Below are positions 13,598 to 57,568 of a DNA stretch of 58,849 bases, one piece after another. The stretch lies in NCBI GenBank assembly GCA_029820045.1, contig JALGVE010000010.1, positions 1-58,849 on the forward strand. Direction: 5' to 3'. The notes under the pieces were generated by a model. That model was not told where the DNA came from. It saw nothing but the letters and a program-made list of their open reading frames with translations, and did no database searches. The position numbers and the translations under genes were made by a program. Positions within the stretch are counted from its first letter, which is position 1, and each line of letters starts with the position of its first letter. The stretch is from Candidatus Zipacnadia bacterium. GTDB lineage: Bacteria; Armatimonadota; Zipacnadia; Zipacnadales; UBA5352.

Positions 13598-15604
13598 ATG
13601 AGCAAGGCGCAAAGCATGATCCTGGGAACCCTCATACTGGTAGGGCTGCTGGCGGCAACCTATGTCGCACTAGGCCGCATGGTGGTGGAGAACACGAACC
13701 GGACGGTCGGCCTGGCGGTTGACTACGCAGAGGTGGAGAGGCTGGCCGCGGCGACGGCCACGGCGCCGGTCAGCGTGCTCCAGCGTCTTCAGGAGGCAGG
13801 CGCAACTCACCTGGCGGTCAGCGAGGATGACCTGCAGACCTTGCTCGGCCGGGGGCAGGTCGCGATGTTTGCCAAGGGCAACACCGTCGAGATCTGGTTC
13901 GCCTCGGCCAAGCGGCTGCACCAGGCAGCCGAGGCCCTCAGCAACAAGTTGCCCGGCGAGTACGCCGAGCGGGAGACGGAGGACGGCGACAGAGTGCTGG
14001 AGGCGCCGTTTGCCGCAACCTCCGTGCCGAATGTGGGTGTCGGCTATCCGCCCGAGGCGCTTGAGGCCGCTCGCAAGCTCGGACTTCACGTGGTCGCCCG
14101 ACCGCACTGGCAGGGCGTTCGCACCCCGAGAGCAGTTACCGCCACCATCGAGCAGGCGGCCGAAGCTGGCGCGCAAATCGTCGTTTTCACGGGCGATCAA
14201 GTGATCGGCCATCCTAACCTGATCGAGACCACCGCCCAGGCCCTCATGCAGAAGAAAGTAGCCTTCGGATTGATCGAGCTAGCGCCGCAGAAAGGCGCCG
14301 CGAAGCTCGCGGCCAAGCTCCACTACCGAGTCGTGCGCGTGCATAGCGTTACTGAGCCGGAGATGCACACCATCTTGCCCCAGCGCGCCGTTGAGCGTTT
14401 CGTGCGGGCCGCAAGGGAACGCGAGGTGCGGCTGCTTTACCTGAGGCTCCTGCCGGGCGCCGAGGACCAGCCGGCCAAGGCTAACGCGACCTATGTGACC
14501 GCCATCAGGGAGGGCCTCAAGGACCACGGGCTGCAGACCGGGGCGCCGCGACCGTTGGCGGACTTCGGAACGCCCCCCTGGCTCCTGGCGTTGGTCTTGT
14601 TAGGCGCATGGGGCGGCGCGCTGTGGCTCATGCAGGCCCTCTTCGGGCTACCGCCGGAGTATTTCTGGGTGCTCACGTTGCTGGCGGTTGTCGGCGGATC
14701 GGCCGGGGCCTACGTGGCCGACGACCTGGCCCGCTCGTTGGGCGCCCTGACAGCGGCCACCGTCTTCCCGCTCCTAGCCGTGCTGTACGCGGCGCAGAGC
14801 ACCACCCCCACCTCCAACTGGCGACCTCGCCTGCTCCACGCCCTGGGCCCGCTGCTAGGCGGGTTCCTCAAGGTGTCGGTCATCACCGCCTTCGGCGGGC
14901 TGCTGGTGGTGGGTGCGCTGGGGGACTCAAGCTACCTGGTGAAAGTCGCGCAGTTCCGCGGGGTGAAGCTGGCTCAGGTCATTCCTCTCGCGGTTGTGGC
15001 ACTGGTCTGGCTGGCGCGCTCCACCGGGGCCTACCGCAACGCAACCCCGGAGGAGGGACCTGACCTCCTGGACCGGCGTAGCGGCATCACACGGCCTGAG
15101 TGGCCGGCGCTCTGGCCCGGTCTGCGCGAGGCCTTCAGTGAGTTCGTCGCCTACTGGCACGTGGCCGCCGCCGTGGTGGGGCTGGCGCTTCTAGGGCTGC
15201 TCATCGTGCGTTCGGGCAACGAAGCGGCCGGTGCTATTCTCCCCGGCGAGCTTCAGTTCCGGGCCTTGCTGGACAAGCTCCTCGTGGTGCGGCCGCGCAC
15301 CAAGGAGGTCTTCCTCGGGCACCCGGTTATGATACTCACTCTGCTGCTCGCGCTGCGGGGCGCGCGTCGGGGCCTGTGGGTCGGGTTCGCGCTTGGCACC
15401 ATCGGACAGATCTCGATTCTCAACTCATGCTGCCATCTGCACACACCGCTGCTGCTGACACTGGTCCGCATCTTCAACGGTCTCTGGTTGGGCGCGCTTG
15501 CCGGGATCGTTCTGTGCACCATCTGGGACCTGCTGAAGCTCCCGCCGCGGCCGGACCGAGCCGCCGAGCCAGCGATGCCGCCCGATGATGAGGACCAGGG
15601 ATGA
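13598..15604 (+). CDS. DUF5693-like multi-TM protein
   Basis: 668 aa with periplasmic domain and multiple TM helices, overlapping csaB by 4 nt; this arrangement is familiar for DUF5693-CsaB pairs. Confidence 0.65.
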
Positions 15605-16683
15605 CAATAGCCCTCTCAGGATACTACGGGTTTGGCAACGCCGGCGACGAGGCTATCCTGGCGGCCACCCTCGCCGGCCTGCGACGGCGCTTGCCCGAAG
15701 CTCAATTCGTGGTCCTCTCCGGCAACCCGCCAGCCACTGAAGCAGAGCATCAGGTGGAGGCATACCCCCGCTGGCGGCCGGCCAGCATCTGGCGCACTGT
15801 GCGCAAGGCCGACTTGCTTGTCTCAGGCGGCGGCGGCCTGCTGCAGAACAGCACCAGCGCACGCTCACTGATGTACTACCTCACGGTGCTGAAGGCCGCC
15901 TGGTTCGCGCGCACGCCCTACGTCATTTTCGCCCAAGGAGTAGGGCCGCTGCGAGGTTGGCTCGCGCGCTGGGGCACGGCGTTCTGGGCCCGGCGCGCGG
16001 TCGCCATCACCGTGCGCGATGAGGCGTCCGTGCAGTTGCTGCAAGAGATCGGCATTCCCGTCGAGCGCATTGAGCTAACGGCTGACCCGGCTCTGACGCT
16101 CCAGCCGCCGCCACCGGAACAGGTCCAGGAGGTGCTCGGCAGCGCCGGTATCACAGAGGACCGGCCGCTGCTCGGCCTGGCGGTCAGGCAGTGGAAGGAC
16201 CAGCAGATGGCGGTTGAGGGCATGGCGGAAGCCGCCCGGCGCGCTGTGGATGAGCTGGATGTGCAACCCATCGCGCTGCCCTTTCAGCCGGCACAAGACC
16301 TCGAGGTCTGCCGCTCGCTCGCTGCGATGATCCCGGGCTGCGTGGTGCTCGACGCGCCCCTGCGGCCGGCGGAACTGATGGCAGTCGTTGGCCGCCTGGA
16401 CATGCTCCTGGCAATGCGGCTGCACGCCCTCATCTTCGCAGCAGCGCAGGCCGTGCCGGCCGTAGGCCTCGTCTATGACCCAAAGATCAGAGCATTCTGC
16501 GAGCAGGCAGGACAACCGTCGGTGGAGGCCGCCGCGCCCGCTGACCTCAGCGACGTCCTCCAGCAGGCGTGGTCCTCCCAGGCTGAGAGCACGCAGGACC
16601 GAGGCCGGCGCGCAGAGCAGCTACGAGCGCGCGCGGAGCGCAACTTCGAGGTCGTGGCGGAACTTGCCCGGGCGCTGAGGTAG
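15601..16683 (+). CDS. csaB: CsaB-like polysaccharide pyruvyl transferase
   Basis: [67 protein letters not shown]. Confidence 0.85.
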
Positions 16684-16699: not shown

Positions 16700-16860
16700 C
16701 GGGCAGCACGGGGGCGGGCTTCCAGCCCGCCCCCAACGGCAAGCGCCGCCGGCGCCCTGCGAATGCAGGGCGCTGCCGGACTTCGTCCGGCCCGCAAGCC
16801 CCCAGGCTTGCGGCGGCGCTTGCCGTGCGATCCCGCTTACGCGGGATCGCGTGCTGCCCG
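16700..16860. repeat. Nested multi-branched palindromic element, copy 1
   Basis: Outer 11-bp stem 16700-16710/16850-16860; arm A 16711-16733; 15-bp stem B 16736-16750/16812-16826 enclosing hairpins 16752-16773, 16775-16791, 16792-16813; arm F 16827-16850. Almost every base is paired. Confidence 0.85.
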
Positions 16861-24762: not shown

Positions 24763-24840
24763 GTAGGTCGGGCTTTCTAGCCCGACTCATCAGTCGTTTC
24801 CCCGGCGGTCAATAGACTCGGGCTAGAAAGCGCGACCTAC
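24763..24840. repeat. REPIN-like pair of inverted GTAG-hairpin elements
   Basis: GTAG-GTCGGGCT-TTCT-AGCCCGAC (24763-24786) and inverted GTAG-GTCGCGCT-TTCT-AGCCCGAG ending at 24840. Confidence 0.7.
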
Positions 24841-36987: not shown

Positions 36988-37076
36988 GGAAAAAGGGGAC
37001 AGTCACCTATTTCCCCGTCACGCCTTGTAACGAGCAAGAGTGAAGGCAGGGAAATAGGTGACTGTCCCCCTTTTCC
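36988..37076. repeat. Long palindromic insertion (28-bp stem, one mismatch, 33-nt loop)
   Basis: GGAAAAAGGGGACAGTCACCTATTTCCC (36988-37015) / GGGAAATAGGTGACTGTCCCCCTTTTCC (37049-37076). Confidence 0.85.
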
Positions 37077-46417: not shown

Positions 46418-46530
46418 CGGCAAACGGCATGAGCTAGCACCGCCGAGACGCTGAGGGCGCAGAGAACGGCTATCAAGGGAGCGTTGCTGTGAGGCTACGA
46501 AGAGGGCTGATGGAAGGAGTCGGGACCGAT

Positions 46531-49500
46531 ATGCGCAGATGGATGACCGTCACAATCGCAGCTTTGCTGGTGGCATCGGTGTACGCTCAGGAGGAGGCGC
46601 CGAGAGTGTTGCTCTTCGGCCAGGGCGGGTTCACAGCTCAGGCGCTTGACGCGCTTGGTGTCAGGTACGACACCGCCACGTGGGCCGACTACGCGGCGAG
46701 CCGAGTCAACATATTCAACTACGAGGTCGGCATCAGCGGAATGGACGTTGACCGCCGACGACTGGCCGATGACCCGGAACGGCTGCTGGCCTTCGTGGAG
46801 AGCGGCGGCGTCTTTGTGGGCATGCGATACAACCATGAGGACCTCTGGCTGCCCTCGCCGGTCAAGCGGGACAAGGCCTACGAGTTCGGTGAGGTCCTGG
46901 CTCCTGACCACCCCATCTTCAACACGCCGCACCGCCTCAGCCGCGACGTGATGGCCCGCGTGCATAGCGGCAGCATTTACGACGCCTTCTATGACCTGGG
47001 CGAGGGCTGGGCGCCACTGGTAAGCACGGGCGCGGAGCAGGGCTGGGACGAGCGCGAGGCGCAGAGCAAGGGGCCGCATTACGGGATCATCAAGCTGAAG
47101 TACGGCAAGGGGCGGATCATCCTGTGTCAGATGATTCCCACCTACGCTTGGTTCAACGACAACGGCGGCGAGGACTGCGAGGGGAAGCTGCTCTTCGAGA
47201 ACATGCTTGCCTACGTGCAGTCCATCGCGCCCCACTGGCCGCAAGCAGGGAGGGCGAGCGTAATGCCCGACAGCTACTACGAGCGCTTGAGCGAGCTGCT
47301 GCCAGAGCCGACCGCCGGCGGGAGCCTGCCGCTTGATGAGGAGGGCTGGCGGTTCGAGAGCAGCGGCGACTTCACCGGTAAGGCGGACCGGCGCTACGTG
47401 TTCACCATCTCATATCCGGACGAGCCCTCAAAGGCGGGCGGCTTCGGGCGGGTGCAGAGAAAGGTCAAGCTCACCAACGCCGAGGGCGGCTGCTACCTGA
47501 GGTTCTATGTCTCCGACGACTACTGCGGCGGCTGGGACCGAGAGTTCGAGGGCGACCGCTCGGTCGGCAAGACCGAGAACCGCAAGAGGGATATGCGGTT
47601 CGCTGAAGTACTCGTGGACGGCAAGCGCGTCTGGGAGACCGACGTGCTTGGCATGAACCCGCGGCCCGCAAGGGATCGCTTCTACGTGGCGGACATCTCT
47701 CGGCAGGCGCGCGGCAAGGATGAGGTAACCATCACGCTCCAGGTCTCGGACCGGCAGGGCAGCGGCGAGGCGCCCTTCGCAACCGAGGTGTTCTGGGCGG
47801 GCGTGGAACTGTTCGAGGGTGTGCAGCAGTTGGACCTGCGGACCGCAAGGGCAAAAGGATTCGTGCCCGACGAAGAGTGCGTCCGTCTGCAAGACGAGGC
47901 GGAAAACGGCACGCTGGCGCGCAGGTTCACAGGCAAGACCGGCGACTACTACGCTGCCATCAACCTGCGCGATGAGCATACCGGGCAGTCCGAGCTGTCG
48001 CTTAGCGTGGGTGGCAGGGAGATGGGCCGGGTCAAGCTCACCGCCGATGACTACGGCTGGCACTGGGCCCGCCTGGGGCCGAGCCGCATCGAAGAAGGCG
48101 CGGAGATAGAGTTGCGCTGCCGGCGCGAGGGCGAGGAGCAGGTGCGCCTCCGCGAGATGGTGCTTCTGCCGAAGGAGCTGGTCGAACGCAGGCCGGCGCG
48201 GCCACCGCTCGCCATCAGGAAGCCGTGCTACCAACCCGGTCCCGAGTCCCGTCGCGAGAGCTTTGCAGCGCGCGTGCAGGAGAACGCAGGCGTACCCCGC
48301 GAGGGCGAGGTCGCCAGCCACGGCATGCCCTTCGCCCACGGCGCGCTGAAGTCGGTAGAGAACATCCGCGTGCTGTCGCCGACCGGACAAGAGGCGCCCA
48401 GGCAGGTGCGTCAGCTTGCCGCCTGGCCCGACGGGTCAGTCATGTTCGCGCTGGTTACCTTTCCGGCCTCAGTCGGCGCGGGCGAGACCGCCGAGTACCG
48501 CGTCGAGTACGGCTCCCAGGTGCAAGCAAGCGCGCAGCCGACGCAGCCTGTCAGCGTGGCTGAGAAGGGTGACGAGATTGTCATCAACACAGGCCCGCTG
48601 ACGGCCACGCTCAGCAAGGTCATGGGGACGGTCTTCGACTCGGCAGTGCTCGACGGCAAGGAGATGGTGGCGGGCGGCCAGCCTTGGACAGCGCTGGTCA
48701 CGACCGAGGACGGGAAGACATACTCCTCCGCGAGCGGCTCGGTGACAAAGGTGCAGATACTGGAGAGCGGACCGCTGCGCGCCATCGTGCGGCGCATCGG
48801 CAGGCACCAGGGGGATGATGGCTCGACGCTGCTGGAGTACGAAATAATCCAGGAGTTCTACGCCGGCAGTCCGATGACACGGCTGCGGTACTACTTCACG
48901 CATAGGGAGAACAGCGACACCGAGAAGATCCGGCAGGTTCGCCTGCAACTGCCGACGCCGTGGGCGTCGGGCAACGGCGCGCGGTCCCTGGTTTGGCTCG
49001 ACGGCGACAAGATGGCGGAGAGCGCGGGCGGCGTGAGCGTCAACCAGCATGACCTCGACGTGGCCACGGTGACCACCGGTGGGGAGGTCTCGGAGGCCGG
49101 GCGCACGCGCGGCTGGGCGCGACTGAGCGCGGACGGTGGACTGTCGGTCGCCACCCGCTGGTGGTGGGAGAAGTTCCCCAAGGCCGTCGAGGTTGGGCCG
49201 GACGGGATCGCGCTTGACCTGATCCCGCGGGATAGTCACACGCTCTTCAGCGATGGGCCCTTCGCGCTGCACCAGGGGGAGTGCATCGGGCACGAGATTC
49301 TCGTAAGCTTCGAGAGGCCGGGCAGCGAGCCGGAGTCCACGGACGTGTTCCGCGCGTTCCAGGACCGTCTGCTGCCCACGCCCGATCCGCAGTACGCCTC
49401 CACCACCATGGCTCTCGGGGAGGTGGCGCCGCACAACGAGTTGATGTTCCCCGACTATGAGGCGGGGATTAAGAGGCTTTACGACGGCTACCTCGCCAAG

Positions 49501-51186
49501 CGTGAGCAGCGCAAGGAATACGGGATGGAGAACTTCGGGGACGATACCTTTGAGTGGGGCTACGGGCCGAGTTACACCTTCTGGAGCAATCAGGAGTACG
49601 ACCACCACCACGGGTTCCTGATGGAGTACCTGCGCTCGGGGGATCGGCGTTACTTCGAGATAGGCGAGCAGGCGGCCCGGCACCACCGGGACGTTGACTG
49701 CATTCATGGGGCGCCCGGGCGGGAGTATGTCCTGGGCTCACCCCACCACCACAACAGCAAGCACCTGGTGGAGGAGGGCTGGTTCCCGGATCACTGCCTG
49801 CGCCCATCCGACGTCACCCACGCCTGGGTCGAGGGCCTGCTGACGTACTGGATGCTGACCGGCGATGTCCGGGCGGAGGAAACCGCGAAGCAGATGGGCG
49901 ACTGGTTCGTGTGGTGCGTGAAGAATGACCACTACGGGGCAGGCGGCCAGGAGCGCGGCCCGGGCTGGACGTTGATTGCACTGTCCGCCCTGTACCGGAT
50001 AACCGGCGACGAACGCTTCAAGCAGGCCGGCGATACTATCCTCGACTGGATGGAGGATATCCAGGACCCGGTGCGCGGCGTCATCAGCGTGCCCATCTCG
50101 GAGCAGCCCAGCTACGAAGGCGGGACCGCCTTCATGCACGGCATTGTCGGGCGCGGCCTGGGCAGGTTCTACGAGGCCACCGGCGAGCGGCGCGCCATGC
50201 GCATGTGCCTGGGGATCGGCGAGTGGCTGACCACCGAGCCGATGGGCCCGCCCGCGAGGTTCTGGTACAAGCAAGCGCCGAGCTGTAAGCACGGCTACGG
50301 CGCTACCTCGCAGTGTCTGAGCGCGCTGAGCTACCCCTACCGTTATACCGGCGACGAGTGGTTCGCGGAGATGAGCGAGGCATTGCTGGCGCAGACGCGC
50401 CCAAGTGTGCGGAGCGTGGCGTGGGCTTACACCACGCTCGCCCACCTCGCCCCACGCCTCACACCCCTGCGCCTTGATCTCCCGAGGGAGCCGCTGGCGG
50501 TTGCACCGGCAACGCCGGGCGAGGTGTCCCTGCACCTGACCAACACAAGTGCGGGACCGGTCGAGGCACGCATACGTGCGGCAGCCGCTCAAGGGCTGGC
50601 GCTGAGCGCGCAGCCCCCGCTCGTCAAGCTGCCCAGCGGCGAGACCGCGGAAGTCAAGCTTACCATCAGCGCTAACCCCCAAGCCGTCGGCAAGACGGTT
50701 GACCTCACCCTCCAAGTAGTGAGCGGGGAACGGACACAGGAGAGGACCTTGCGCGTCAGGGCCATCAAGGAGCTGGTGCGCAAGACGCTGGGCGTGGAGC
50801 AGGCGCAACTGACCTCACCGTTCGTCCTCTCCGAGGAGGACGGCAAGAAGTACGCGCATGTGCCTCGGGAAGCTCGCTTCAACCCCGATCCGTGGGCCGT
50901 GCAGGACGAGGCCGGCGCAGTAACCTGGCAAGTCACCCTGCCGACGCGAGGTGAGTACTCCCTCCTCGCGGACTGCTACTGGCTGGACGACAAGGGCAAC
51001 TCCTTCTACGCTGCCGTGGATGACGGTAAACCAACGGAGTTCGGGAACGACTCCCGCCTCGAGCAGTGGCATTCGGTGCGTGGGGAGGCCTACCAGCTCG
51101 AAGCCGGTACGCATACCATCTCACTCCGCAGCCGTGAGGACGGCGCCCGCGTGCGGGCCATCACGCTCACGAATATGCCGCAGTAG
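46531..51186 (+). CDS. PcRGLX/YetA-like (exo-rhamnogalacturonan lyase-like) large secreted protein
   Basis: Signal peptide MRRWMTVTIAALLVASVYAQ; RIFT-like region and (a/a) barrel with FGDDTFEWGYGPSYTFWSNQEYDHHHGFLMEYLRSGDRRYFEIGEQAARHHRDVD. Confidence 0.7.
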   Translation: MRRWMTVTIAALLVASVYAQEEAPRVLLFGQGGFTAQALDALGVRYDTATWADYAASRVNIFNYEVGISGMDVDRRRLADDPERLLAFVESGGVFVGMRYNHEDLWLPSPVKRDKAYEFGEVLAPDHPIFNTPHRLSRDVMARVHSGSIYDAFYDLGEGWAPLVSTGAEQGWDEREAQSKGPHYGIIKLKYGKGRIILCQMIPTYAWFNDNGGEDCEGKLLFENMLAYVQSIAPHWPQAGRASVMPDSYYERLSELLPEPTAGGSLPLDEEGWRFESSGDFTGKADRRYVFTISYPDEPSKAGGFGRVQRKVKLTNAEGGCYLRFYVSDDYCGGWDREFEGDRSVGKTENRKRDMRFAEVLVDGKRVWETDVLGMNPRPARDRFYVADISRQARGKDEVTITLQVSDRQGSGEAPFATEVFWAGVELFEGVQQLDLRTARAKGFVPDEECVRLQDEAENGTLARRFTGKTGDYYAAINLRDEHTGQSELSLSVGGREMGRVKLTADDYGWHWARLGPSRIEEGAEIELRCRREGEEQVRLREMVLLPKELVERRPARPPLAIRKPCYQPGPESRRESFAARVQENAGVPREGEVASHGMPFAHGALKSVENIRVLSPTGQEAPRQVRQLAAWPDGSVMFALVTFPASVGAGETAEYRVEYGSQVQASAQPTQPVSVAEKGDEIVINTGPLTATLSKVMGTVFDSAVLDGKEMVAGGQPWTALVTTEDGKTYSSASGSVTKVQILESGPLRAIVRRIGRHQGDDGSTLLEYEIIQEFYAGSPMTRLRYYFTHRENSDTEKIRQVRLQLPTPWASGNGARSLVWLDGDKMAESAGGVSVNQHDLDVATVTTGGEVSEAGRTRGWARLSADGGLSVATRWWWEKFPKAVEVGPDGIALDLIPRDSHTLFSDGPFALHQGECIGHEILVSFERPGSEPESTDVFRAFQDRLLPTPDPQYASTTMALGEVAPHNELMFPDYEAGIKRLYDGYLAKREQRKEYGMENFGDDTFEWGYGPSYTFWSNQEYDHHHGFLMEYLRSGDRRYFEIGEQAARHHRDVDCIHGAPGREYVLGSPHHHNSKHLVEEGWFPDHCLRPSDVTHAWVEGLLTYWMLTGDVRAEETAKQMGDWFVWCVKNDHYGAGGQERGPGWTLIALSALYRITGDERFKQAGDTILDWMEDIQDPVRGVISVPISEQPSYEGGTAFMHGIVGRGLGRFYEATGERRAMRMCLGIGEWLTTEPMGPPARFWYKQAPSCKHGYGATSQCLSALSYPYRYTGDEWFAEMSEALLAQTRPSVRSVAWAYTTLAHLAPRLTPLRLDLPREPLAVAPATPGEVSLHLTNTSAGPVEARIRAAAAQGLALSAQPPLVKLPSGETAEVKLTISANPQAVGKTVDLTLQVVSGERTQERTLRVRAIKELVRKTLGVEQAQLTSPFVLSEEDGKKYAHVPREARFNPDPWAVQDEAGAVTWQVTLPTRGEYSLLADCYWLDDKGNSFYAAVDDGKPTEFGNDSRLEQWHSVRGEAYQLEAGTHTISLRSREDGARVRAITLTNMPQ

Positions 51187-51206: not shown

Positions 51207-51400
51207 CGGGCAGCGCCGGGGTCGGCGTGGCATCAGCCGCGCCGACCCCGAAGCGCAGCGATGGCAGGCGATCCCGCAACCGCGGGATCGCCGACGCGCA
51301 CAGGCTCAGCCGCACCTCCTGCGGCTGAGCCTGTGCGCGTCCCGGCCCCAGGCCGGTGCCATCGCTGCGTTGTGCGCGCTTCGCGCGCACGCGCTGCCCG
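51207..51400. repeat. Nested multi-branched palindromic element, copy 2
   Basis: Outer 10-bp stem 51207-51216/51391-51400; arm A 51217-51250; 13-bp stem B 51254-51266/51357-51369 enclosing hairpins 51267-51292, 51293-51341 (perfect 22 bp), 51342-51356; arm F 51372-51390. Confidence 0.85.
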
Positions 51401-51416: not shown

Positions 51417-52037
51417 TCAGGCCGCAAGACTCTGCTCGATCTGAAGGATGCTGATGAGCACGGCGACGACGTCCGGGTGGAACTGCGTGCCTGCGCGCAT
51501 GAGGAGTTCAGCAAGGGCCTGCGCGCGTGGCCTGGCGGGACGGTAGGGACGCCAACTCGTCATGGCGTCGTACGCATCGCAGACGCCGAGTATGTAGGCG
51601 CGCAGGTCGAGTTCGTCACCGCCCAGCCCATCGGGGTAGCCCCGCCCATCGAACTGTTCGTGATGATGGCGCACGGGGTCGCTCAGGTGAGCGAGGGCGG
51701 GGATGCCAACGATCAGCTCGGCTCCTACGATGGGGTGCTGACGCACCTGGCGGAACTCGGTGGGCGTAAGAGGTCCCGGCTTGGAGAGAACCGCGCGATC
51801 CACCCCTACCTTGCCGACGTCGTGCAACATACCCAACACGCCCAACTCGTTCAGGCTGGAGCGGGGCAGGCCGAAGAAACGGCCAACCTCCACGGCAAGC
51901 TGGGCGACGCGGCACGAGTGAGCGTAGACACACGCGTCCGCGCTGGCCGCCCGAGAAAGGAGGCTGGCAACTGCGGCATCAGTGTGCGGGGGGAATGCGA
52001 CGTCCACCCACCCACGTTGCGGTTCATGCGCGGACAT
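51417..52037 (-). CDS. HD-GYP domain protein
   Basis: LHDVGKVGVDRAVLSKPGPLT; RHHHEQFDGRGYPDGLGGDEL. Confidence 0.9.
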   Translation of the reverse strand: MSAHEPQRGWVDVAFPPHTDAAVASLLSRAASADACVYAHSCRVAQLAVEVGRFFGLPRSSLNELGVLGMLHDVGKVGVDRAVLSKPGPLTPTEFRQVRQHPIVGAELIVGIPALAHLSDPVRHHHEQFDGRGYPDGLGGDELDLRAYILGVCDAYDAMTSWRPYRPARPRAQALAELLMRAGTQFHPDVVAVLISILQIEQSLAA

Positions 52038-52845
52038 TGCGTACTGGCGCCTCTGTCCGCGAGCCGGCGCAGGCCACGGCCTGTGCCATCGGGCGCTGGT
52101 GGTAGGAAGCCGCGGGTAGGATGAGCAGGATGCCTGGGCGGTCGGTGAGCAGATCGAGGCTCCCACCGTGCCGGATGGCGATAAGCCGCGCGGCGGTCAT
52201 CGGCAACTGATCGGCCGCGAGCGCTCCCGGCGTGTCCTGCTCATTGTTGCTCAGCGAATCGAGGCGGACGACCAGCTTGACGCGCGCCTCTTGACCTGCC
52301 TGTGCCGGGACCGGCGTCACGGAGGTGACTACCCTGTCGCCCGCACGCGCCAGCGAGGTGACGGACCGCAAGGCGCTCAGCACGGCCTGGTGCAGCAGGT
52401 CTTCGTCCCCCAGTACTGGTGGACAGGATTGAGCCGCATCCACCACCAGCCATGCACCCACGAGCTGCGAGTAGGAGGCGAGGGTGCGCACCGCGCGCCT
52501 GCTGATGCCCACGAGGTCCACCGGGCTGAGCAGTCTGGCGTCCAGCGCTCCGCCCTGCCTCGCCACCACCAGGAGGTCGGAGACCAGCCGGTCAATGGTC
52601 GTTACCTCGCTCGCAATCATGCTCAGCATCTCACGGTGGTCGTTCGGGTCAAAGTCCCCGCCGAGCAGGTAGTCGGCGGCGGCCCCGATGGTGGTCAAGC
52701 TCGAGCGAGTGCGATGGGCAAAGGACTCAACGGCCCGCAGGTCGAGGTCAAAGGAAGGGCCCGTGGCCCCGCCCGAGATAGCCGCATCCTGCGGAGCAGG
52801 CTGCTCTGCGCCGTCGGCGGCTTGATAGCCGATTCCCTCGGACAT
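52024..52845 (-). CDS. Degenerate histidine-kinase-like protein
   Basis: FAHRTRSSLTTIGAAADYLL resembles a HisKA H-box; DEDLLHQAVLSALRSV at N-box position. Confidence 0.65.
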   Translation of the reverse strand: MSEGIGYQAADGAEQPAPQDAAISGGATGPSFDLDLRAVESFAHRTRSSLTTIGAAADYLLGGDFDPNDHREMLSMIASEVTTIDRLVSDLLVVARQGGALDARLLSPVDLVGISRRAVRTLASYSQLVGAWLVVDAAQSCPPVLGDEDLLHQAVLSALRSVTSLARAGDRVVTSVTPVPAQAGQEARVKLVVRLDSLSNNEQDTPGALAADQLPMTAARLIAIRHGGSLDLLTDRPGILLILPAASYHQRPMAQAVACAGSRTEAPVRNVRA

Positions 52846-57189: not shown

Positions 57190-57306
57190 CAGTATGACCC
57201 CTCATCGGCTGGCCCCCTTTACTCGGCGGCAGCTACTCACGTTGTCACCCGGCGAGTGCCTGCGGTCGCAAGCGGAGCGAATGGTCTCATAGGCGTCTCG
57301 GCCATA

Positions 57307-57331
57307 GTAGGACAGGTGCCCTCACCTGTCC
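57307..57331 (+). repeat. GTAG-hairpin element
   Basis: GTAG overlapping GGACAGGTG-CCCT-CACCTGTCC (9-bp perfect stem). Confidence 0.6.
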
Positions 57332-57354: not shown

Positions 57355-57568
57355 CGGACAGACGAGGCGTCTGTCCTACTACCCGACAGACGAGGCGTCT
57401 GCCCTACTACGCGACAGACGAGGCGTCTGTCCTACTACGCGACAGACGAGGCCTCTGTCCTACTACGCGACAGACGAGGCGTCTGTCCTACTACGCGACA
57501 GACGAGGCCTCTGTCCTACTACGCGACAGACGAGGCCTCTGTCCTACTACGCGACAGACGAGGCCTCT
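57355..57568 (-). repeat. 28-bp tandem array (7 full + 1 partial units) of hairpin units
   Basis: Unit GCGACAGACGAGGCGTCTGTCCTACTAC; minus strand reads GTAGTAG-GACAGACG-CCT-CGTCTGTC. Confidence 0.95.

Follow-up and report, generated by a model that had tools for sequence, protein, structure and literature searches.

The window analysed here is a stretch of 58,849 nucleotides from Candidatus Zipacnadia bacterium, one contig (C90) of a fragmented assembly of 2.6 Mb in 173 contigs that is about 60% complete. It carries two nested palindromic elements, w1 and w2, whose sites give the strongest folds of the whole window in a sliding-fold analysis. w1 follows a gene for a CsaB-like polysaccharide pyruvyl transferase, and w2 lies between the convergent genes of a PcRGLX-like protein and an HD-domain protein (Table 1).

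Table 1. Nested elements w1 and w2 and their neighbouring genes, in positions of the window
Feature	Positions	Strand	Basis or remark
Gene upstream of w1: polysaccharide pyruvyl transferase (CsaB-like)	15601-16683	+	Pfam PF04230, E=2.6e-44; stop codon 16 nt before w1
w1, whole copy with the topology of w2, 161 nt, 70 bp	16700-16860		fold z = -11.5
w1 arm A, 11 bp	16710-16734		fold
w1 stem B (16736-16750 with 16812-16826) plus three inner hairpins	16736-16826		fold
w1 arm F (GCGATCCCGC, loop TTAC)	16827-16850		same arm as w2 inner hairpin 1
Gene upstream of w2: PcRGLX-like protein	46489-51186	+	Pfam PF21345, PF19501, PF21346; stop codon 20 nt before w2
w2 outer stem, 5' side (CGGGCAGCGC)	51207-51216		perfect pairing with 51391-51400; most other copies share this outer stem
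w2 arm A, 15 bp, loop ATCA	51217-51250		fold
w2 stem B, 5' side	51252-51266		partner strand 51357-51371
w2 inner hairpin 1 (GGCGATCCCGC, loop AACC)	51267-51292		arm common to w1, C3, C95 and C34
w2 inner hairpin 2, perfect 22 bp	51293-51341		fold
w2 inner hairpin 3, 6 bp	51342-51356		fold
w2 stem B, 3' side	51357-51371		fold
w2 arm F (GTGCGCGC-TTC-GCGCGCAC)	51372-51390		stem recurs: arm A in C3, arm F in C43
w2 outer stem, 3' side (GCGCTGCCCG)	51391-51400		fold
Gene downstream of w2, convergent: HD-domain protein	51417-52166	-	Pfam PF13487, E=1.4e-29; stop codon 16 nt from w2

The boundaries that an earlier note, made from the sequence alone, had assigned to w2 (51207-51400) are exact, with CGGGCAGCGC...GCGCTGCCCG at the ends, and the fold reproduces the order it had read there: an outer stem, arm A, a stem B with three hairpins, and arm F. 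The 194 nt of w2 form 87 base pairs and leave 19 loop bases and one further unpaired base. The pairs are distributed over the outer stem (10 bp), arm A (15), stem B (15), the inner hairpins (11, 22 and 6) and arm F (8 bp), and the perfect 22-bp stem described in the note is the second of these inner hairpins. As DNA, w2 folds at -127 kcal/mol compared to -67.7 +/- 3.9 for dinucleotide shuffles (z = -15.3), none of 200 shuffles being as good. The order had been called identical in both copies, and w1 indeed folds with the layout of w2.

Outside the nested elements, the hairpins of the window are few and mostly unrelated to the element arms. A 28-bp unit, GACAGACGAGGCCTCTGTCCTACTACGC, is repeated 7.6 times in a tandem array at 57357-57568, with 96% matches and a small palindrome in each unit; an inverted relative of this unit lies at 57294-57331. 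At 36988-37076 there is a 28-bp inverted repeat, 96% complementary (GGAAAAAGGGGACAGTCACCTATTTCCC / GGGAAATAGGTGACTGTCCCCCTTTTCC), which we take to be reminiscent of the repeat ends associated with REP/Y1 transposases. Two further inverted-repeat sites, at 24763-24840 (GTAGGTCGGGCTTTCTAGCCCGACTC...) and 1219-1258 (TTGGTCTGTTTTCAGACCATATGGTCTGTATTCAGACCAA), are simple hairpins unlike the nested element.

Copies elsewhere in the genome were sought by DNA search, by the pattern of the outer stem and with covariance models. The resulting family comprises at least a dozen copies of roughly 150-200 bases each, a figure that is a lower bound because the number of candidates scored in the genome search is limited. 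Eleven copies are full (w1, w2, C3, C34, C43, C68, C75, C78, C95, C96 and C130, nine of them beyond the window), and together with a three-arm variant (C114) and a decayed copy with a broken outer domain (C46) they are spread over 12 contigs. Single-sequence folds, made without any alignment, give the same two-tier tree for 11 of the 11 full copies: the outer stem, 10 bp long in w1 and w2, leads to two arms, A and F, with stem B between them, and stem B in turn leads to three hairpins. Both branch points are near-perfect four-way junctions with hardly any unpaired bases in any copy. The outer stem is CGGGCAGCG in most copies, with variants in C78 and C130 (GGCCAGCGC, CAGCCAGCGT). C114 (L047:2018-2175) has the outer stem and arms of 21, 24 and 18 bp without a stem B, and is perhaps an ancestral or reduced form. 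A further pattern match, C54 (L018), does not fold as a tree and was set aside as chance.

The elements have sharp outer ends, CGGGCAGC...GCTGCCCG, which show no target-site duplication, and the flanks beyond the outer stem are unrelated between copies. The sole clear shared flank is a stretch of 47 bp, 91% identical (AGGATGATGGGCGGGGCGGGGTGGAGAGGGAAGGTGAGCGGGGAGGG), immediately to the left of the C68 and C96 elements (L051, L053). A sequence search of the genome with w1 found no other full copy, and it is therefore the fold that holds the family together. These observations point to a repeat family that is defined by fold rather than by sequence.

Individual arms recur between copies, and they do so in different slots. 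The arm GCGATCCCGC-N4-GCGGGATCGC, which the earlier note had seen in both window copies, occurs there twice and 0 times in 100 shuffles, as arm F in the first copy and as the first inner hairpin in the second, just as described. Its GATCCCGC hairpin has six sites in the genome (0 for a reversed-pattern control), being arm F in w1, inner hairpin 1 in w2 and C3, and inner hairpin 3 in C95 and C34. The CGGGGTYGGC arm is arm A in w2, and its relative (CGGGGTTGGC...) occupies slot F of C3 and C95; the GTCCCGTCCCGC arm serves as A in C95 and as F in C34; and a CGGGCGC arm recurs in the A or F slots of several copies. The GTGCGCGC arm occupies slot F in w2 and in C43 and slot A in C3. Of its two loops in slot F, the one in w2 reads TTC and the one in C43 is its reverse complement, GAA, as would result from an inversion of the arm. 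Part of the apparent shuffling is orientation only, as reversal of an element swaps A with F and inner hairpin 1 with inner hairpin 3. Real movement or inversion inside the element is nevertheless needed for w1, where an inner arm is present as an outer arm, and for C3 relative to w2, where the outer arms are swapped relative to the inner domain. The proposal of exchangeable arm cassettes is thus partly supported: arms are shared across the slots of several copies, the exchange of cassettes is a possible mechanism for this, and nothing points to a specific enzyme.

The only GATCCCGC arm outside the recognised nested elements is intergenic, GATCCCGC-CCCG-GCGGGATC at C34:10782-10801 (L068 about 1490-1530), and adjoins a CCCCTCTCCC/GGGAGAGGGG hairpin. 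We rejected the idea that the element arms form a genome-wide vocabulary of stand-alone hairpins, given this one solitary site and the mostly unrelated hairpins of the window.

The earlier note had staked its reading on additional copies and on covariation beyond chance; more copies were found, as described above, and the covariation among them is overwhelming. In an alignment that was fitted to the model and holds both strands of the 11 full copies, whose rows are not independent and which leans towards structure, pairing extends to 98.0% of cells, two-sided change is seen at 72 of the 79 pairs, bearing out the suspected compensatory change, and the covariation score is 0.83. The corresponding values are 60%, 58 pairs and 0.18 for shuffles, and 35-40% and 0.07-0.10 for slid partners. 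Alignment-free folds give the same picture, those of the 12 intact elements containing five G-T pairs and eight 1x1 mismatches altogether. The notion that the palindromes are an assembly or binning artefact, or chance palindromes in GC-rich DNA, can draw on the fragmented, 60% complete assembly, but is refuted by the covariation and by the independent copies, which differ in sequence and are embedded among ordinary genes in the interior of many separate contigs. Fold z-scores of -11 to -15 also speak against it, and 33 viral contigs in which the outer stem occurs by chance fold otherwise.

Several features of the stems and loops bear on whether the fold exists as DNA or as RNA. G-U pairs make up 0.7% of cells and A-C mismatches 0.4%, an excess that is not clear. 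Substitutions between copies are of the transversion type in 68.5% of cases and of the transition type in 31.5% (26% expected under random replacement), which indicates no bias towards a wobble path, since passage through G-U would be expected to enrich changes of the transition type. Between homologous arms, 36 changes are two-sided, with many flips from G-C to C-G, and 4 are one-sided, in comparisons that overlap and whose events are not independent. The hairpin loops are 3-4 nt long and closed by a C-G pair in 51 of 58 cases. GNRA or UNCG sequences are found among the 21 four-base loops 0 times on the + strand and once on the - strand. GNA triloops are exceptionally stable in DNA, and GNA is present on either strand in 14 of the 36 three-base loops, compared to 3.7 expected by permutation, the loops of related arms not being fully independent. 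Together, the few G-U pairs, the random-like substitution, the two-sided changes and the loop types favour DNA over RNA, and they are also compatible with selection for the fold. Template switching during replication is a documented source of perfect stems, of compensatory changes at several bases and of inverted loops (PMC8794818). Strong selection for a fold, be it of RNA or of DNA, would also be expected to give perfect pairing.

The family appears confined to its own genome in the searches made. Covariance models detected no copy in other genomes, whether in nine from the family, 40 from the order or 290 from the phylum, at a sensitivity limited by a pre-filter that left 9 to 150 candidates to be scored per genome and that recovered most of the own-genome copies. 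Direct sequence search in 60 relatives gave only chance matches of 27-48 nt that do not fold as elements, counts of the outer-stem pattern in the nine family genomes are overall about equal to those of a reversed control, and BLAST against plasmid and phage collections gave no match. The pattern does occur in the 33 viral contigs mentioned above, but by chance: they are 60-78% paired, have no tree fold and match no model below E = 0.4, and lacking the tree fold they also serve as a negative control. Among family orthologues of csaB, the element is absent and the next gene usually starts soon after csaB; these relatives are about 50% identical and differ in synteny, and are not clean empty sites.

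In the genome itself, the elements are found at the ends of genes. The earlier note had put the start of both window copies about 16-21 nt past a stop codon, and the measured distances are 16 nt (w1) and 20 nt (w2, with 16 nt on the other side). For the other elements, the nearest stop lies at 18 and 17 nt (C3, both sides), 38 (C43), 19 (C95), 13 (C34), 13 (C75), 34 (C96), 12 (C130), 36 (C114) and 72 nt (C68), and C78 is the sole intact element without a nearby gene end. For 10 of the 12 intact elements, a stop codon is thus no more than 40 nt away, which holds for about 15% of intergenic positions as estimated from a rough gene set of the window (p about 4e-7). The neighbours are mostly Pfam-confirmed genes of unrelated functions (sulfatase, DegT-type aminotransferase, glycosyltransferase, ADH, GH2 and others), and a Pfam scan of flanking proteins revealed no transposase domain.

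Such a location is equally expected of a transcription terminator, and the main rival explanation is indeed a structured 3'-UTR RNA, the fold of which would be selected as RNA to form an unusually large terminator or an exonuclease barrier at mRNA ends. The 12-38 nt that separate the 10 elements from their stop codons are the usual place of a terminator, the very strong covariation fits a selected RNA, and w2 and C3 serve both sides of convergent gene pairs. We nevertheless consider this account unlikely, though the most serious of the alternatives, because G-U pairs are nearly missing and in no clear excess over A-C mismatches, stable RNA tetraloops are essentially absent, no relative was found in the phylum, the window has no Rfam match at gathering scores, and a two-tier tree far exceeds the needs of a terminator. 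Nor does a T run (U-run in RNA) follow the outer stem, and a scan around w2 revealed no site resembling a terminator or a promoter, so that the elements fit the class of intrinsic terminators in position but not in these respects.

A second rival would have the two four-way junctions extruded from the chromosome and bound by a junction-recognising protein, such as a recombinase or a nucleoid or segregation protein, with the sites being kept for that role. Junctions nearly devoid of unpaired bases in all copies, small C-G-closed loops enriched in GNA, which favour DNA hairpins, and a shape that is fixed while the sequence is free would all suit such a site. However, only about a dozen copies were found, beside unrelated genes and at lineage-specific positions, and no partner protein is known, which makes this explanation improbable. 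Less probable still is a family of non-coding RNA genes, that is, a stand-alone structured RNA in many dispersed copies: the topology is conserved with covariation, but the loops and junctions are not conserved in sequence, no Rfam family matches, and no promoter-like site was found near w2.

We therefore favour, with a probability of roughly one half, a reading of the elements as a young, lineage-specific, non-autonomous family of nested-palindrome repeats, MITE- or REPIN-like, which is predicted to act and evolve as folded DNA. Each copy, whether single-stranded or extruded as a cruciform, would take the shape of a tree in which two four-way junctions are stacked, a geometry that, like the mechanism, is read from sequence. 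Copies would arise by duplication, presumably enzyme-mediated, of the whole unit delimited by the outer stem (CGGGCAGCG...CGCTGCCCG), and the stems may be kept perfectly complementary by template-switch copying of DNA, that is, palindrome correction. Recombination between copies, at junctions or palindromes, could swap or invert whole arms, and insertion combined with selection would leave copies just downstream of stop codons. Once transcribed, a copy would form a very stable hairpin tree at the 3' end, which may stop transcription or protect the transcript. More tentatively, the heritable identity of the element might be its branched DNA shape of two nested four-way junctions and five arms rather than its sequence, with copying and insertion taking place as a folded single strand or cruciform; the arms would then be interchangeable palindromic modules, and the element would persist when one of them is replaced or inverted.

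Sequence is the usual basis on which repeat families are detected and defined, whereas here the fold is nearly perfect despite sequence divergence. The sequence likeness of some copies is at or below the detection limit of BLAST, and ordinary repeat finders therefore miss such families. The set of copies also provides two natural tests, one of whether compensatory change originates from DNA template switching or from selection through G-U intermediates, and the other of how nested palindromes of large size persist in the chromosome of a bacterium.

With several dispersed copies, discrete ends and unrelated flanks, the nested elements are a kind of interspersed palindromic repeat in the broad sense. 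ERIC, bcr1, BOX and RUP are MITE-like bacterial repeats of 100-200 bp, intergenic, dispersed and capable of a stable fold, with a shared consensus sequence. Those families are defined by that consensus, whereas the nested elements are held together mainly by their fold. The RAYT-associated REP, BIME and REPIN sequences are short GC-rich extragenic palindromes, often just downstream of coding regions, whose paired units can form one large nested hairpin and which are thought to spread as single-stranded DNA (PMC3733652, PMC3116915, PMC8266576). Our elements are likewise GC-rich, palindromic, extragenic and close to the ends of coding regions. However, REP and REPIN have stems of 5-13 bp, a fixed GTAG or CGTC tag and a conserved sequence, whereas the nested elements measure 150-200 bp, have seven helices in a fixed two-tier tree and differ widely in sequence while pairing is kept. 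We do not assign them to REP/REPIN, as they lack an unpaired GTAG or CGTC at their ends and have a different stem architecture, with most arm sequences unconserved. The double hairpin elements (DHE) and repetitive hairpin-forming elements (RHE) of mitochondrial genomes are mobile-looking hairpin elements in intergenic DNA, those of sponges being described as having conserved stems and differing loops (PMC2800124). They are organellar and consist of one to three hairpins; our elements, with a bacterial host, five arms, two enclosing stems and stem sequences that are themselves replaced, do not belong to them either. A parallel to the changes within the stems is given by the template-switch hairpins of Monttinen and Loytynoja (2022, PMC8794818), which likewise show perfect stems, multi-base compensatory change and loop inversion at the DNA level. 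Template switching is in that case a mutational mechanism seen in RNA genes, whereas the nested elements constitute a repeat family.
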